This document shows positions 17,818 to 22,913 of a DNA stretch of 64,000 nucleotides, piece by piece (position 1 is the stretch's first letter; each line of letters starts with the position of its first letter). Location of the stretch: NCBI RefSeq assembly GCF_012940005.1, contig NZ_SPMX01000033.1, positions 1 to 64,000 of the forward strand, in the 5' to 3' direction. The stretch comes from Candidatus Accumulibacter contiguus (GTDB lineage: Bacteria; Pseudomonadota; Gammaproteobacteria; Burkholderiales; Rhodocyclaceae). The notes beneath the pieces are model-generated. The model was not told where the DNA came from, ran no database searches, and saw nothing but the letters and a program-made list of their open reading frames with translations. The translations under genes were made by a program, and so were the position numbers.

Positions 17818-18546
17818 ATGAAATATCTGCCTGAACTGTTTGCCGCCAATACCCGCTGGGCTGAGGACATGCGAGCAGCTGACCCCAATTTCTTTGCCGG
17901 CCTGGCCGGCTTGCAGGACCCTGACTACCTGTGGATAGGGTGTTCGGACAGCCGGGTGCCGGCGAATCAGATCACCGGCCTGAAGCCGGGCGAAGTGTTC
18001 GTGCATCGAAATATCGCCAACGTCGTGGTGCATACGGACCTCAACTGCCTGTCGGTGATGCAGTACGCCATCGATGTGCTCAAAGTCCGCCACATCATCG
18101 TTTGCGGTCACTACGGCTGCGGCGGTGTCCGGGCGGCTCTGGAAGGGCCCTCCCTGGGATTGATCGATAATTGGTTGCGCCACATCCAGGATGTGCGCGA
18201 TCGGCACATGGATTTCCTGGCGGCGCAGCCGGACACCACGACGCGCTGGCGCGCCCTGTGCGAACTAAACGTGATCGAGCAGGTGCGCAATGTTGCCCGC
18301 ACCACGCTGGTCGGCGACGCCTGGAAGCGTCACCAGCCACTGATGTTGCATGCCTGGATCTATGGCCTGGAAGACGGTCGCCTGCAAGACCTGCAAGCTT
18401 CTTTCAACGAGGAAGGCGAAGTTGATTCGGTCATCGCCCAAGCGGTGGCAGCTGCCCATTCGCGTTACACTACGAATCAAACCATCCGAGATGAAAGGAC
18501 GGGAAAACGAATACTGGCCAACCAATGCCTACCAGAATCTACCTAG
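17818..18546 (+). CDS. can: Beta-class carbonic anhydrase
   Basis: 242 residues from ATG at 17818. Zinc ligands and catalytic dyad are all visible: C42, D44 and R46 in GCSDSRVPANQ, and H98 and C101 in CGHYGCGG. It hydrates CO2 to bicarbonate. An upstream in-frame start at 17725 would add 31 Arg-rich residues not typical of the family, so I chose the internal ATG, with TGGAAAG just before it. The end overlaps the next gene by 22 bases, so the two are likely translated together. Confidence 0.92.
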   Translation: MKYLPELFAANTRWAEDMRAADPNFFAGLAGLQDPDYLWIGCSDSRVPANQITGLKPGEVFVHRNIANVVVHTDLNCLSVMQYAIDVLKVRHIIVCGHYGCGGVRAALEGPSLGLIDNWLRHIQDVRDRHMDFLAAQPDTTTRWRALCELNVIEQVRNVARTTLVGDAWKRHQPLMLHAWIYGLEDGRLQDLQASFNEEGEVDSVIAQAVAAAHSRYTTNQTIRDERTGKRILANQCLPEST

Positions 18547-19145
18547 TGCGCCACGGCGCCACCGATCTCACCGCCGAAGACCGATTCGCCGGTTCCTCCG
18601 ATGTGCCTCTCTCCGACGAAGGTCGCAGACAGGCGGCATGCCTGGCGGAGCGGCTGAAACGAGAGAAGCTGGATGCCGTTTACGCCAGTCCGTTACGACG
18701 CACCATGGAGACCGCGCACACCTTGGCGATTCCCCACGGTCTGGAGCCGATAGCCGAGCCCGGGCTGCGCGAAATCGATTATGGCCACTGGGAGGGGCTA
18801 CGTCGATCCGAGGTCGAGAGTACGTTCCAGGCCGAGTACGCCATCTGGCAGGAGGATCCGTTCGCCATCGCGCCCCTGCATGGAGAATCCGGCGTCAATG
18901 TGCTCAACCGCGCATTGCCCGTAATGCGCAGGATAGTCGAGCGGCATCGCCACTGCACGGTTCTGTTGGTATCCCACAAGGGAACCAACCGACTCCTGAT
19001 CAGCAGCCTGCTGGGCTTCGACATGCGGGGCTATCGCGACCGCCTGGAGCAAAGCCCGGCAGCGCTGAACATTCTCGACTTCATGAGCGAGGTACACGCC
19101 CGCTTGCACTTGTTCAACGACGTCTCGCATTACGAAGAAAGATAG
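18525..19145 (+). CDS. Histidine phosphatase (phosphoglycerate mutase-like) family protein
   Basis: 206 residues. The phosphohistidine motif YLVRHGATD is at residues 6-14. A second conserved block is VYASPLRRTMETAHTLA, and the acid/base region REIDYGHWEGL and the second catalytic His in VLLVSHKGTNR are all present. This profile fits small-molecule phosphatases of the CobC/GpmB group; the substrate is unknown. Its start lies inside the carbonic anhydrase gene. Its 3' end overlaps the convergent radical SAM gene by 32 bases. Confidence 0.85.
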   Translation: MPTRIYLVRHGATDLTAEDRFAGSSDVPLSDEGRRQAACLAERLKREKLDAVYASPLRRTMETAHTLAIPHGLEPIAEPGLREIDYGHWEGLRRSEVESTFQAEYAIWQEDPFAIAPLHGESGVNVLNRALPVMRRIVERHRHCTVLLVSHKGTNRLLISSLLGFDMRGYRDRLEQSPAALNILDFMSEVHARLHLFNDVSHYEER

Positions 19146-20253
19146 GAAATCTCGACATTGCTTCCATACGGGCGAAGATCTTCTTGTACAGGTCACAATA
19201 GGGATCTTTCGTGAGGATGTCGCCGTGAACGCTGTAGGCTCTCACCGGGCATCCGCCGTGGCAGATGGCGAGGTAGTCACAATCCAGGCACTCTTCGGTT
19301 TTTATCAGGGAACCGGGTCTCATCTGGAACTCCCGGCGTGCATCGCTCCGTCGCAGCAGGTCCGAGAGGCTGACCGGATCAAGAATGTTGCCAAAGCGAT
19401 ACTCGGGATAACTGCTGACCCAGCAGTCGCATTGGGCTACGTGCCCACGGGGATCGATACAGACGAATTCGTTTGCGCAGTTCTCGCGCCAGATGCAGAG
19501 CAGGTCTTTCGTGCCCTGCTCGAAGTAGGCGAGCAGCTTGTCGAAGGGTCCGATTCGTACACCTGCGTCCCTGCCTCGTCTCTCCCAGATATCGGCCAGA
19601 TCCAGTAGAAAGCGGCTGAAGTCTTCCGTTTCCAGAGGATGAGCACACTTCACCGCTTTCGACGTGCCTCCCGGGAAGGGCGTATTGACCTGAAAATCCC
19701 GGATTCCCAGACGGTCGACGAAATACGAATAGAAGGCCTCCGCTCCGGCTTCGACGGTCCCGGCATTGGGTATCGCGATGACGCCAATCTCGATGCCGGC
19801 TTCCCTGGCCTCGAGAACCTTTCTCTCCCACAGATCCTGATACTGTTGCGGCGTGCCGCCCTTGACGCGGCGGTGGAGATTGGGGAAATCCATCGAAGTC
19901 CCCAGGCTGTTGCCGAACATTTCCGTGATGACCGGTTTCCATTTCGGGCCGTAACCAATCATGTTGGTCTGCAGGTAATTGCCTATTCGCTTTTCCCGTG
20001 CGGTCGCGATCTCCTGGACGAGTTCATGGGCGCGCTCGAACCATTCGGGTGGCTGGGTCATCACCTCACCGCCCTGCCAGTAGATGGACAAGGTGTCGAT
20101 CTGCCGGTCCTGCATGTGGTCAAGGACCTTCCGGAGCACGACGGCAAGTTGATTCAGGGTGAGTCGATCTTCGGTTCGGGTCTCGAAGCAGTACTCGCAA
20201 TCGGCGTTACAACGCAGCGTGGGCAGCAGGATGAGGGAAAAAGGAGGCTTCAC
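19114..20253 (-). CDS. Radical SAM/SPASM peptide maturase (GrrM-like, cyclophane-forming)
   Basis: 379 residues. The radical SAM cluster motif CxxxCxxC is C15, C19, C22 (LRCNADCEYCFE). A TIM-barrel follows (SIYWQGGEVMTQP, NYLQTNMIGYG). The C-terminal SPASM domain has CANEFVCIDPRGHVAQCDCW and CLDCDYLAICHGGCPVRA for two auxiliary [4Fe-4S] clusters. Such maturases cross-link side chains in ribosomal peptides. The precursor at 21226-21549, with six Trp-X-Asn motifs, points to Trp-Asn three-residue cyclophanes as in GrrM/OscB-type triceptide enzymes. It overlaps its upstream partner gene by four bases. That it is an rSAM/SPASM maturase is very likely. The GrrM-type assignment is inferred from the precursor. 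Confidence 0.85.
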   Translation of the reverse strand: MKPPFSLILLPTLRCNADCEYCFETRTEDRLTLNQLAVVLRKVLDHMQDRQIDTLSIYWQGGEVMTQPPEWFERAHELVQEIATAREKRIGNYLQTNMIGYGPKWKPVITEMFGNSLGTSMDFPNLHRRVKGGTPQQYQDLWERKVLEAREAGIEIGVIAIPNAGTVEAGAEAFYSYFVDRLGIRDFQVNTPFPGGTSKAVKCAHPLETEDFSRFLLDLADIWERRGRDAGVRIGPFDKLLAYFEQGTKDLLCIWRENCANEFVCIDPRGHVAQCDCWVSSYPEYRFGNILDPVSLSDLLRRSDARREFQMRPGSLIKTEECLDCDYLAICHGGCPVRAYSVHGDILTKDPYCDLYKKIFARMEAMSRFPIFLRNARRR

Positions 20254-21078
20254 GCGACTCCTGTCCCGTTCGGCGGGCAGGCAGCGAGATCGCTCCGCAA
20301 CTCCCTTGCTGCCTCGGCGAGCGTCCGGAAGAGGGCCTTGACGGTGTCGCAGCGATAATTCCTAGCGGGCCATTTGAAATAGCCGGAGCAGCTATCGACG
20401 AATTCGCATCCTCGGCATTCCCCCCCTTCCGTGATCAACCCGGCAATCTGCCCGCTGACAAATTCGTTGAAATCGGATGGCGGCGCCATGCCGATGAATC
20501 GCTTGCCGACGATCTCTTCGTTCTGGTCGGTTACGTAGCGGATCCGGCGCGGATCTTCCTCCTGCACGGCCCAGAGGCTCACTGGCTCCTGGCGAAAAAA
20601 AAGCCAGGAAGAGGCTGTGGACGAACTCGACGGGCACCGAGACACTCGGCCGGTAAAGGTAATCGCTGGCCACGCCAAGCAACTCTTCGGCGAGGGAATG
20701 CGCTGGCTGAGATCCTTCGAGCTTCACTGCGAAATCGAGCGATATCGCCAGCCTCACCACCTTGCCGAACCCCGGCGCAAAAGGCACCGAAACCCGAACC
20801 GGTCGATCGCTCAGCAAGGGCGAGTACTTGTAGAGTAGCGGTAACTCTTCGGTCGGCTTTTCCACCACCAGATCGAGAGGAGTCCCGCATTCCCAGCGCA
20901 ACAGGCCGTCCACCGGCGCACTCAGGCCAAGGATCTGCACATAGGCGAGGTCGTCGCGGTCCTTCGTCGAGAGTGCTGCGCCGATCAGGTCCGGATCCCG
21001 GGAACGAACCACGAGATGACGTCCCCGATAGGCATCGACCAAGGCAAGCGGGACGTTGTACAAGAGGGAATCAGTCAA
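20250..21078 (-). CDS. SPASM-like partner of the radical SAM maturase, no radical SAM motif (one frameshift)
   Basis: About 275 residues after removing one base from A8 at 20595-20602; the repaired join reads HSLFLAFFRQEPVSLWAVQE. The N-terminal 190 residues (TKDRDDLAYVQILGLSAPVD, VVEKPTEELPLLYKYSPLL, PGFGKVVRLAISLDFAVKLE) do not resemble a family I know. The C-terminus has CRGCEFVDSCSGYFKWP and a later Cys in NYRC, a CxxCx5C spacing like SPASM, but the CxxxCxxC cluster motif is absent. Four-base overlap with the maturase gene and its position next to the precursor suggest a dedicated accessory or recognition subunit. Role inferred. Confidence 0.65.
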
Positions 21079-21225
21079 GAAGCGTACTTTCGCGGACTAC
21101 CAAGGATATCGCCGTTGATCGACCGAGGACGTCTTCTTCCCGTGCTGACACGCGGACACCGACGCATGCCCATACCATCCCGCTTCCCGCGTCAGGCAGT
21201 ACGAGAAGGGGAAAAGAGTGGGCGG

Positions 21226-21549
21226 CTAGAAGCGGTTGACCCAGGAACCGCCGCCATTGACCCAAGTGCCGCCACGGTTGGCCCAGGCGCCGCCACGATT
21301 GGCCCAGGCACCACCACCGCCCGCACGGTTGGCCCAGGCACCGCCTCCGCCCGCGCGGTTGGCCCAGGCGCCCGCCTCGGCGTCCGGCACAGCACCCAGT
21401 TTCAACATTGCCCCACCGAAGAGGGCGCTGCCGATGACGACCTTGGACCACTTGTCGAGACTGCGGAGGAAGTCCCTCCGCCCCATCAACGTCGTGTCAT
21501 CGGCTGTATTGTCGTCAGTTCCCTGCTGTGATTTCATGTCGTCGTTCAT
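21226..21549 (-). CDS. Glycine-rich repeat RiPP precursor (GrrA-like) with six Trp-X-Asn motifs
   Basis: 107 residues from ATG at 21549, preceded by GAGGTTGAAC. Residues 1-22 are acidic/polar. RRDFLRS at 24-30 looks like a twin-arginine motif, a hydrophobic stretch covers about 37-53, and PDAEAG at 55-60 resembles a signal-peptidase site. The core, residues 60-107, is almost only repeats: W-A-N at 62, 72, 82 and 89, W-V-N at 96 and 103, separated by R-A-G-G-G-G or R-G-G spacers and ending in NRF. Trp-X-Asn is the three-residue motif cross-linked by triceptide maturases. A longer frame to 21660 adds sequence with no family sense. Cluster membership is confident. The chemistry is predicted. Confidence 0.8.
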   Translation of the reverse strand: MNDDMKSQQGTDDNTADDTTLMGRRDFLRSLDKWSKVVIGSALFGGAMLKLGAVPDAEAGAWANRAGGGGAWANRAGGGGAWANRGGAWANRGGTWVNGGGSWVNRF

Positions 21550-21571
21550 GTTCAACCTCGGTTTCCTGCTC

Positions 21572-21586
21572 GCAAAAATCCGGCCA
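21572..21586 (-). promoter_or_regulatory. Possible sigma-54 promoter before the RiPP precursor
   Basis: On the minus strand the sequence reads TGGCCGGATTTTTGC, with GG and GC in the -24/-12 spacing and a close match to TGGCnnG-N4-TTGC. It ends 22 bases before the precursor ATG, so the leader would be only about 12 bases long. That short leader lowers confidence. Confidence 0.3.
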
Positions 21587-21689
21587 TGGCCCCGTAGAAC
21601 TGGTCTCAAACCAGAGGCAAAGTACCATGCGGATCGGTTCGATGGCCTCATGCGCTTCACTCAGATGCTTTCGCCGGCTCTGCTACTCG

Positions 21690-22169
21690 CTACTCGGCAC
21701 CCAGCCGGGAAAAGTGCACGCTGACAAAACGCCACTGGCCTTTCTCCTTTTGCAAGGTTCCGGACATGTTGAAGGCGCGTTCCCGCGTTTCCTGGTCGAC
21801 GGGGGCTTTCATCGTGGTGGTCATCGCAAACCAGGCGATGTTACCGCTCGCACCGGTTGAAATCCACTGGTTGCTGAAGCTGATGCTGTTCGGCTTGAAC
21901 TTGGTAAAGAACTGAGCGTAGGCAGCAGAGATCCCTTCCCCGCCCAGATAGGCTTCGCCAGCACCGGTACCCAACAGGACGGCACCGGGCGACGAGGAAT
22001 AGGTCGCCATCACGCCCTCGAGATCCTGCGCGTCAAACGCCTTGTTGTGACGTTCCACCAGGGACTGCACCCCGGGCAGGGGGTCTGTTTTCGGGGACTC
22101 CGCCAGACAGGGAGAAGCCATTGCCCCACAAACAGCCGTCACCAGGACGAAGCTCCGCATCGCAGACAT
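21690..22169 (-). CDS. Secreted NTF2-like (SnoaL/DUF4440-type) protein
   Basis: 159 residues starting with a signal peptide (SFVLVTAVCGAMASPCLAES). The mature part shows the NTF2-like fold seen in SgcJ/EcaC and SnoaL-like proteins: LVERHNKAFDAQDLEGVMAT, LLGTGAGEAYLGGEGISAAY, WFAMTTTMKA and GQWRFVSVHFSRLG. These are small cone-shaped proteins that bind or isomerise ligands. A strong AAAGGAGATC precedes the ATG at 22169. It is the first gene in the direction of the RiPP cluster, about 140 bases before the precursor, and probably belongs to it as a periplasmic component. The role is inferred. Confidence 0.75.
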   Translation of the reverse strand: MSAMRSFVLVTAVCGAMASPCLAESPKTDPLPGVQSLVERHNKAFDAQDLEGVMATYSSSPGAVLLGTGAGEAYLGGEGISAAYAQFFTKFKPNSISFSNQWISTGASGNIAWFAMTTTMKAPVDQETRERAFNMSGTLQKEKGQWRFVSVHFSRLGAE

Positions 22170-22364
22170 CAATGATCTCCTTTCGTAATCAAGCCGCTTG
22201 GGAAATTACCGGCTGAACCGGCTCGAAAAGTTCAGGCCTCAACACAACCGATGCGTTACGTTCCCGACCCAAGAAGACAGCTAATCAACACATCTTAAAG
22301 GGTAGAAGACGCGAAGGGAAAACACAAGACAATTTTTCGGCGGTGTCCGTGACCCCTGTTACTA

Positions 22365-22500
22365 TGAAAGTCGCGAGCGACTCTCGAATCTCCCCTCCCC
22401 CTCGCGGGGGGAGGGGTTGGGGGAGAGGGGAAACGGTCATGACTTTCATCATCGGGGGTGTCTTGCAAAGTCATGACCGTTTGGCTGAAGTCAGCCGTCG
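22365..22500. repeat. GC-rich palindromic dispersed repeat, copy B, with nested inverted repeat
   Basis: Starts GAAAGTCGCGAGCGACTCTC and contains TCCCCTCCCCCTCGCGGGGG followed by GGGGGAGAGGGGAAACGG. Both ends match copy A (410-471). Relative to copy A the string TCATGA is split by an insertion. The insertion is bounded by an exact 11-base inverted repeat, GTCATGACTTT at 22436-22446 and AAAGTCATGAC at 22467-22477. It ends at the 3' end of the lipoprotein gene, and together with a short AT-rich leader fills the gap between that gene and the NTF2-like gene. Confidence 0.75.
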
Positions 22501-22913
22501 TTCAAACCACCCCCTGGCCCCCAGCCGGGCTGGGGAGCAATGGGTGGGCCGTTGTAGGGGCTCTTTGGGATGTGACCGCTCGGTGGCACGTAACTCCCTG
22601 GCGGATCGTAAGCCTTGGGTTGGCGGTAGGCGTCGCGGTTTCGATACTGCTCCTTGGCCTCCTTCTTGGCCTCCTTCTTGCCACGCTCATAGCCTTTCTC
22701 GTAGTCATGCGACCTGTAATTCTGGTTGTAGCTTGAACGTTCGGCATCACGGTAACCGCGCTCGTACGCCGAGTCGCGATCGGCTGCCCAGTAGCCATCG
22801 TTGGAGTAGCCGCGGTAAGGGCTGTCGTACGGTGAATTGTAATTGCAAGCAGTCGTTGCGAGCAGGCCACCGATGGCAGCGAAGATGGAAATACGCTTGA
22901 CGTAAAGGGACAT
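22491..22913 (-). CDS. Small Tyr/Arg-rich lipoprotein of unknown function
   Basis: 140 residues. The N-terminus (KRISIFAAIGGLLATTACNY) has a hydrophobic segment ending in a plausible lipobox with Cys at residue 23. The mature region is low complexity and charged: repeated YERGYRDAE and YEKGYERGKKEAKKEAKEQ, then a Pro/Gly-rich tail (YVPPSGHIPKSPYNGPP). No family recognised. It is probably tethered to the outer membrane. No cotranscribed partner is evident, and its 3' end overlaps the repeat at 22365-22500. Confidence 0.6.
   Translation of the reverse strand: MSLYVKRISIFAAIGGLLATTACNYNSPYDSPYRGYSNDGYWAADRDSAYERGYRDAERSSYNQNYRSHDYEKGYERGKKEAKKEAKEQYRNRDAYRQPKAYDPPGSYVPPSGHIPKSPYNGPPIAPQPGWGPGGGLNDG

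Follow-up and report, generated by a model that had tools for sequence, protein, structure and literature searches.

Introduction

Trp-x-Asn is the crosslink site of the three-residue cyclophane enzymes OscB and XncB; in the portion of PMC11002830 available to us, OscB is described as joining C7 of the Trp ring to the β-carbon of Asn or Asp, and XncB as joining C6 to that of Asn. The GrrA/OscA–GrrM/OscB systems (models TIGR04260 and TIGR04261) combine a Gly-rich precursor with repeated aromatic-x-Asn motifs and a single radical S-adenosylmethionine (SAM, AdoMet) enzyme of the SPASM type. The same combination is found in the locus described here, four minus-strand genes that make up a Candidatus Accumulibacter cassette of 3.2 kb. 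It lies in a stretch of 64,000 nucleotides (the window; positions 1 to 64,000, forward strand, of contig NZ_SPMX01000033.1) from assembly GCF_012940005.1 of Candidatus Accumulibacter contiguus (5.02 Mb, 167 contigs).

The cassette probably encodes a pathway of the triceptide kind, with an architecture of its own, for a ribosomally synthesized and post-translationally modified peptide (RiPP): a precursor with aromatic-x-Asn motifs is encoded beside a SPASM radical SAM gene, the gene arrangement expected of a triceptide. Gene content, conservation, co-occurrence, the predicted fold of a pseudo-enzyme, the cysteine sets and the presence of the cassette in unlike settings were obtained directly. 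The features are as follows (ORF, open reading frame; Aux, auxiliary cluster):

19153–22361, minus: four-gene cassette, a block in common with G010, another Accumulibacter genome, where it has a different chromosomal setting
21690–22169, minus: SnoaL/NTF2-like protein, putatively exported, 159 residues (PF13474; alignment A7, n = 43; N-termini)
21226–21549, minus: precursor peptide, 107 residues, leader 1–59, core 60–107 (ORF; alignment A4, n = 63)
21460–21480, minus: twin-arginine-like motif RRDFLRS, residues 24–30, with a conserved KWS (33–35) after it (A4)
21229–21372, minus: core, with six W-x-N at W62, W72, W82, W89, W96 and W103 (translation, shuffle test)
20250–21078, minus: partner, predicted pseudo-radical-SAM/SPASM protein, split into frames 20392–21078 and 20250–20678 (ORFs, match to alignment A6)
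20595–20602, minus: run of eight T that breaks the partner frame, seven T in G010 (sequence comparison with G010)
20349–20417, minus: Aux II-type cysteine set of the partner, CxxC-x5-C...C, with GYFKWP in between (A6 conservation)
19114–20253, minus: radical SAM/SPASM maturase, 379 residues, GTG start (ORF; alignment A5, n = 72)
20188–20211, minus: AdoMet cluster motif CxxxCxxC of the maturase (C15, C19, C22), conserved in 72/72
19195–19497, minus: SPASM region of the maturase, with C253, C259, C275, C277, C322, C325, C331, C335 and C353, each conserved in 72/72

A first-pass annotation, made from the letters of the window, had named a secreted NTF2-like protein, a precursor with six W-x-N motifs, a Cys-rich partner and a radical SAM/SPASM maturase. 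Our analysis bore out the SnoaL/NTF2-like gene (probably exported, judging by its signal peptide), the precursor with exactly six motifs (4 WAN, 2 WVN), the maturase, and the 4-base overlap of partner stop and maturase start at 20250–20253. The genetic tie between a multi-motif W-x-N peptide and a SPASM radical SAM enzyme likewise stands, and the suggested neighbourhood comparison showed that the same four genes recur, usually in the order NTF2/SnoaL, precursor, partner, maturase. The partner gene is present, while its supposed single frame proved to be two frames parted at the run of T. Both the partner and the NTF2-like protein, which the annotation could assign to no standard set, belong to the system. 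Two further features, absent from that annotation, are a twin-arginine-like leader motif and an AEA site immediately ahead of the core.

The precursor peptide

The window precursor consists of RRDFLRS, KWS, a hydrophobic stretch, AEA at residues 57–59 and the core, which reaches the C-terminus and has linkers of Gly, Arg and Ala, no Cys and one Ser. When this core (6 Trp, 6 Asn) was shuffled, six W-x-N appeared in 0 of 200,000 permutations and five in 3 of 200,000; the six motifs are thus not a product of chance.

Relatives were collected by a pattern-based scan of one genome per species (84,980 species), in which the best 80 of 99 relatives gave 79 loci, labelled as Desulfobacterota, Geobacter, Acidobacteriota, Verrucomicrobiota, Chromatiaceae, Competibacteraceae, Hydrogenedentes and others. 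The precursor set (A4) comprises the window precursor, that of L004 and 61 from the loci, which were picked by a pattern of at least two W-x-N plus an R..L..WS leader; the set omits a minus-strand ORF with two motifs in L073 and a frame with a single motif in L025. Across these 63 sequences, 439 of 466 core Trp residues lie within W-x-N, and of the remaining 27, eight are too close to the protein end and three belong to W-x-D. The middle residue is V, I, A, Y, G, H, L or another, spacing from Trp to Trp is mostly 7 to 11, and the motif is retained across phyla in linkers that vary. R25, W34, S35, W62 and N64 (window numbering) are invariant, RRx[FL][LF] occurs in 61/63 at 31–38 residues from the core, and the last motif lies at most three residues from the C-terminus in 58/63. 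The window genome encodes TatC, the match scoring 238.8 bits (cut-off 132.7). Only one precursor of the set, that of L018, matched the AmcA model NF041721 at E 0.01 or better (37.5 bits, cut-off 40).

A third type of precursor was seen in Competibacteraceae-type genomes (L123, 2124–2516; L124, 593–961; L125, 1290–1670). These peptides have an RRQ.L.LLGRWSP leader, W-x-N motifs, little Gly and a WNDC start, and the regions fetched around them hold no partner, NTF2 or maturase gene.

The maturase

C15, C19, C22, all eight SPASM cysteines of the type found in anaerobic sulfatase maturases (anSMEs), and C277 are conserved in 72/72 sequences, so that the CxxxCxxC motif and the cysteines for the SPASM auxiliary clusters mark the whole set as radical SAM/SPASM enzymes. 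TIGR04085 (SPASM) matches the window maturase with 57.6 bits (cut-off 27), and the Pfam models Radical_SAM (29.0 versus 29.5) and SPASM (21.2 versus 21.5) fall just below their cut-offs. The spacing of the SPASM cysteines resembles that of the Aux I and Aux II ligands of anSME, and the other SPASM enzymes compared in the available portion of PMC5491770 are without one of these eight cysteines. The best sequence relatives in the PDB are anSMEs (4k36/4k37), with E 7.9e-30.

Membership of the GrrM/OscB or XyeB enzymes, which the first-pass annotation had brought up, was not upheld when the maturase was compared with models of radical SAM/SPASM subfamilies. The GrrM model TIGR04261, which matches all 72 maturases (best E 5.1e-28), gives 81.1 bits against a cut-off of 310 for the window protein, and the XyeB model TIGR04496 gives 38.7 against 450. 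The best model is that of anaerobic sulfatase maturases (133.8 bits, cut-off 349.45), followed by DynA (132.1, cut-off 450); DarW (109.8, cut-off 650), DarE (102.9, cut-off 650), AmcB (70, cut-off 425) and YhhB (45.1, cut-off 445) score lower, and FxsB/MscB is not among the best 25 of the 54 models that match. By cut-off, the enzyme stands outside the anSME, DynA, DarW, DarE, GrrM, AmcB and XyeB families. The window genome has a second, weak match to TIGR04261 (35.5 bits; G000:C96:86099-86587, L002), in a different radical SAM protein.

The partner protein

In the window, the partner matches the A6 profile in two pieces, of 192.7 and 141 bits. G010 has seven T at the run and a single partner frame of 275 residues (intact homologue L004), next to a maturase that is 98% identical. 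The break at the eight T may be a mutation or an assembly error. A programmed frameshift was considered and is disfavoured, because all 46 partners of A6, the nearest included, are long single frames. Two other partner copies, however, also look short or broken, one in L069 (183-residue frame) and a second copy in G504, where G504:C9:23-567 gives a two-piece match beside an intact partner and is possibly a decayed copy. A6 excludes the short frames of L055, L057 and L069.

A structure prediction for the partner has the radical SAM/SPASM fold (matched by VIA-align on one of two predictions), in which the AdoMet cluster cysteines, and also the Aux I ligands, appear to be lost. The closest fold is that of ChlB, whose structure has a precursor leader bound according to its entry title, and anSME (4k36/4k37) also ranks among the top structural matches. 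One cysteine set of the Aux II type is kept in A6 (equivalents of C221, 45/46; C224, 46/46; C230, 46/46; C243, 45/46), and GYFKWP, W169, E173, Q124 and H142 are the most conserved features other than cysteine. A PDB sequence search with the partner gave a best E of only 0.37; the HxsC model weakly matched 4 of the 46 partners (best E 0.0041), and the first partner matched no model. The partner is thus predicted to be a catalytically dead paralogue of the maturase with a single cluster.

The SnoaL/NTF2-like protein

The window NTF2-like protein matches PF13474 (SnoaL_3) with 58.4 bits (cut-off 22) and PDB entry 3h51 with E 4e-9; its PDB relatives are of the ketosteroid isomerase and CaMKII-association-domain types. 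Inspected by eye, the 43 N-termini of A7 (which leaves out the partial proteins of L076 and L081) mostly carry a Sec-type signal, as does the window protein. A lipobox-like site was seen in four Acidobacteriota proteins and in L058, Verrucomicrobiota proteins start with NRR, and the frames of L014 and L036 show no signal. In view of these N-terminal signals, the protein most likely acts outside the cytoplasm.

Distribution and co-occurrence

For the maturase alignment A5, nine of the 79 loci were left out, eight with short matches and L081 with frame breaks. Of the 72 loci with at least 400 bases ahead of the maturase, 46 have the partner immediately upstream. Where enough upstream sequence is present, the partner loci also hold the precursor in 41/44 cases and NTF2 in 34/40; L061 has two NTF2–precursor pairs in tandem. 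Of the 26 loci lacking an adjacent partner, 25 form one clade, mostly labelled Competibacteraceae, and L086 is a fragment outside the tree. Twenty of these loci have at least 1.3 kb downstream, and 13 of them have a precursor there; for the other seven, each genome has precursor matches elsewhere. A partner was likewise present elsewhere in all 13 genomes searched among those with such loci. L024 (Phycisphaerales label) and L025 (Synechococcaceae label) have maturases within the Competibacteraceae clade and are probably mislabelled or mixed bins.

Sixteen precursor regions were read that lie apart from the maturase, which in these draft assemblies means on separate contigs. NTF2 is directly upstream in nine and the partner adjacent in seven, and the maturase is adjacent in none; the three regions that have neither partner nor NTF2 are those with the low-Gly type of precursor (L123–L125). 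The NTF2 gene travels with the precursor gene, not with the maturase gene.

Co-occurrence was also counted in the family of G494, the genome of L033, which is labelled Candidatus Competibacteraceae. Of its 39 genomes, 26 were found to have the maturase, 29 the partner and 30 the precursor; 23 have all three and 8 have none. One-sided Fisher tests gave p = 7e-4 for maturase and partner, 2e-4 for maturase and precursor and 6e-6 for partner and precursor, values that are optimistic because the genomes are related. Among 101 genomes of Accumulibacter and relatives, four have the maturase, and the same four have partner and precursor.

In the maturase tree, the remaining two Accumulibacter copies cluster with three from Chromatiaceae (support 100/98); the one in the window clusters with Thermodesulfobacteriota-, Myxococcota- and Hydrogenedentes-labelled copies (98/93, some long branches). 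Since the copies fall into separate groups, Accumulibacter seems to have acquired the gene set more than once. When the window was compared by blastn with L007, from G010, 19153–21662 aligned at 96.7% and 21656–22361 at 94.9% identity, and beyond the cassette only two short, out-of-order stretches matched; the flanks in G010 (16 kb compared) have no collinear match to the window. The maturase search in 398 genomes of the phylum found the window's own genome only, and a scan of viral contigs found no relative. Against plasmids, tblastn gave nothing at 1e-30, and at 1e-5 it gave 193 records whose best rows are about 26–27% identical.

Neighbouring genes

A histidine-phosphatase-like gene (by eye; 18525–19145) converges on the maturase and overlaps its 3′ end by 32 bases; the C-terminus of the maturase is unlike that of G010, which is consistent with a cassette junction near 19153. 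Upstream of the cassette lies a small lipoprotein-like ORF rich in Tyr, Arg and Lys (22491–22913).

The 25 largest clusters of neighbouring genes, named by eye, include no transporter or immunity gene that is repeated from phylum to phylum. RND-pump-like genes recur at five loci and outer-membrane-factor-like genes at four, nearly all of the Competibacteraceae type, and such genes were noted near partner-less maturase loci in L031, L035, L038, L084 and L087. Signalling-kinase-like genes are present in 18 loci. By eye, from one query, sulfatase-like genes occur in L017 (+1361 from the maturase), L056, L071 and L088.

Discussion

In the pathway that we propose, the cytoplasmic maturase and its dead paralogue would act jointly on the precursor, with the partner either holding the leader or the long, repeat-rich core in position or relaying electrons through its single predicted cluster. 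By analogy with known W-x-N chemistry, the Trp ring would be joined to the β-carbon of the Asn two positions later in each motif, with loss of 2 H per motif, so that the window peptide could carry up to six crosslinks (12 H). The Tat-like (twin-arginine translocation-like) leader would then export the product, probably already folded, and the Gly/Arg-rich core would be freed by cleavage at or near the AxA that precedes the first W-x-N; maturation leader and export signal would thereby be one element. In the envelope, the exported or lipid-anchored SnoaL/NTF2-like protein may bind or process the mature peptide. A structural or envelope role for the product is weakly favoured over an antibiotic one.

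A number of observations weigh against this proposal. The maturase scores higher with anSME and DynA than with GrrM and has the full set of eight anSME SPASM cysteines, and for this reason relatedness does not tell which reaction it catalyses. The window's own genome has a disrupted partner frame. The W-x-N and R..L..WS features of the precursors are partly selected by the pattern used to pick them, the fraction of Trp within W-x-N less so. Export by Tat and subsequent cleavage are calls at the level of motifs, since the NCBIfam Tat model matches only 5/63 precursors at E 0.01 or better and an AxA is found no more than four residues from the first W in 47/63. Among partner loci, NTF2 is not nearby in 6/40 and the precursor is not present in 3/44, and NTF2 is downstream in only 5 of the 20 partner-less loci. 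In the 39 genomes, at the thresholds used, two have a maturase without a partner and five a partner without a maturase, and in G496, which has both, no precursor was found.

The maturase might act on W-x-N and yet make something else, for example a Trp crosslink to the next Arg or from one motif to another, or an Asn oxidized at its β-carbon, as is conceivable for an enzyme of anSME descent. The likeness to anSMEs in model score, PDB matches and eight-cysteine SPASM region speaks for this, as does the Arg that follows 332 of the 439 motifs and is superfluous for a cyclophane. Trp and Asn, however, are retained, whereas the position following Asn is variable (R, G, H, A, K, S), and the second best model is DynA, an enzyme that links Trp to Asn, at a different spacing. 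OscB and XncB link exactly Trp(i) to Asn(i+2), as the available portion of PMC11002830 has it, and we consider a different product unlikely. Should the system instead be a diverged true member of the GrrA/GrrM (OscA/OscB) family, which strikes us as improbable, one would point to the shared motif type and Gly-rich repeats, to TIGR04261 matching 72/72 maturases, and to TIGR04260 matching 15/63 precursors at E 0.01 or better (best E 5e-7). The window precursor, however, reaches 26.2 bits with TIGR04260 (cut-off 31) and aligns to model positions 65–118 of 118, leaving the first 64 unmatched; of 18 further precursors scanned singly, three match (20.6 to 26.1 bits), none at cut-off. Scores of about 28 bits with this model are unspecific, given that a Gly-rich part of a long primase-like frame (by eye) of L141 reaches 28.8 bits. 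In 398 genomes of the phylum the model gave two matches, none over the cut-off (L141, and L142, which has no GrrA-like frame). Filing the system under GrrM/GrrA was set aside because maturase and precursor both fall below the curated cut-offs (81 versus 310 and 26 versus 31 bits).

An ordinary sulfatase maturase beside an unrelated Gly-rich exported protein is very improbable. Although anSME is the closest named model and sulfatase-like genes do occur in four loci, the score is far below that model's cut-off, the other 75 of the 79 loci have no sulfatase-like match (one query; many loci are short), the genes for precursor, partner and maturase tend to be present in the same genomes even where they lie on different contigs, and the window core, with no Cys and a single Ser, offers little for formylglycine formation. 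As for the partner, it may be mainly a redox or structural subunit, relaying electrons through its Aux II-type cluster, and not a leader-binding one. We take this to be a serious possibility, though somewhat short of probable: the four-cysteine set is the sole metal-type site kept once the AdoMet and Aux I ligands are lost, but GYFKWP and the four other conserved residues could form a binding surface, and the closest fold, ChlB, was solved with a leader bound.

Returning to a triceptide-kind pathway, we tentatively raise the possibility that the family forms a separate RiPP class. Such a class would have an obligate pair of active and dead radical SAM/SPASM proteins, a repetitive core with many Trp–Asn cyclophanes and a Tat-signal leader, with maturation serving as a folding check before export. 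It would use no dedicated transporter or leader protease, and the rigid, cationic, Gly-rich envelope polymer would be handled by the exported SnoaL-like protein.

If the proposal is right, a RiPP system spread across phyla joins a multi-cyclophane product, a conserved pseudo-enzyme partner and a Tat-type leader, a trio that no paper among those searched brings together. Competibacteraceae and Accumulibacter inhabit activated sludge, so the product could be sought in existing proteomes. The system would also be a tractable model for a radical SAM enzyme that handles many sites per chain, for whether crosslinking is checked ahead of export, and for what auxiliary cluster II does, a role called unclear in the available portion of PMC9012708.

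Comparison with known systems

The predicted chemistry is already known; the combination of a pseudo-radical-SAM partner, a Tat-type leader and an exported SnoaL protein matched no model or paper among those searched. Among the literature matches listed, there is no paper on the four-gene system or on a natural RiPP with a Tat leader, and Nguyen 2020 and Sugiyama 2022 may list such precursors. Unlike the Grr set, the window proteins are below both Grr cut-offs, and the portion of PMC11002830 at hand describes for that set no RRxFL..KWS Tat-like leader, pseudo-radical-SAM partner or exported SnoaL protein. The XncB/XyeB triceptides (TIGR04496) share the Trp-x-Asn crosslink site, but their model falls short by more than 400 bits on the window maturase. 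DynA, DarE and DarW are among the best RiPP maturase models for the window enzyme, yet all stay far below cut-off, and to our knowledge dynobactin and darobactin precursors are not Gly-rich W-x-N repeats. The likeness to anSME (4k36/4k37) extends from the maturase sequence and the eight SPASM cysteines to the predicted partner fold; unlike in anSME, the maturase is well below the model cut-off and the substrate core has no Cys. HxsB/HxsC, the GeoRSP SPASM protein (TIGR04304) and the TIGR04347 pseudo-SAM protein belong to systems that have two radical-SAM-related proteins each, and the partner of the window family differs from such pairs in that it is predicted to have lost both the AdoMet site and the Aux I ligands.

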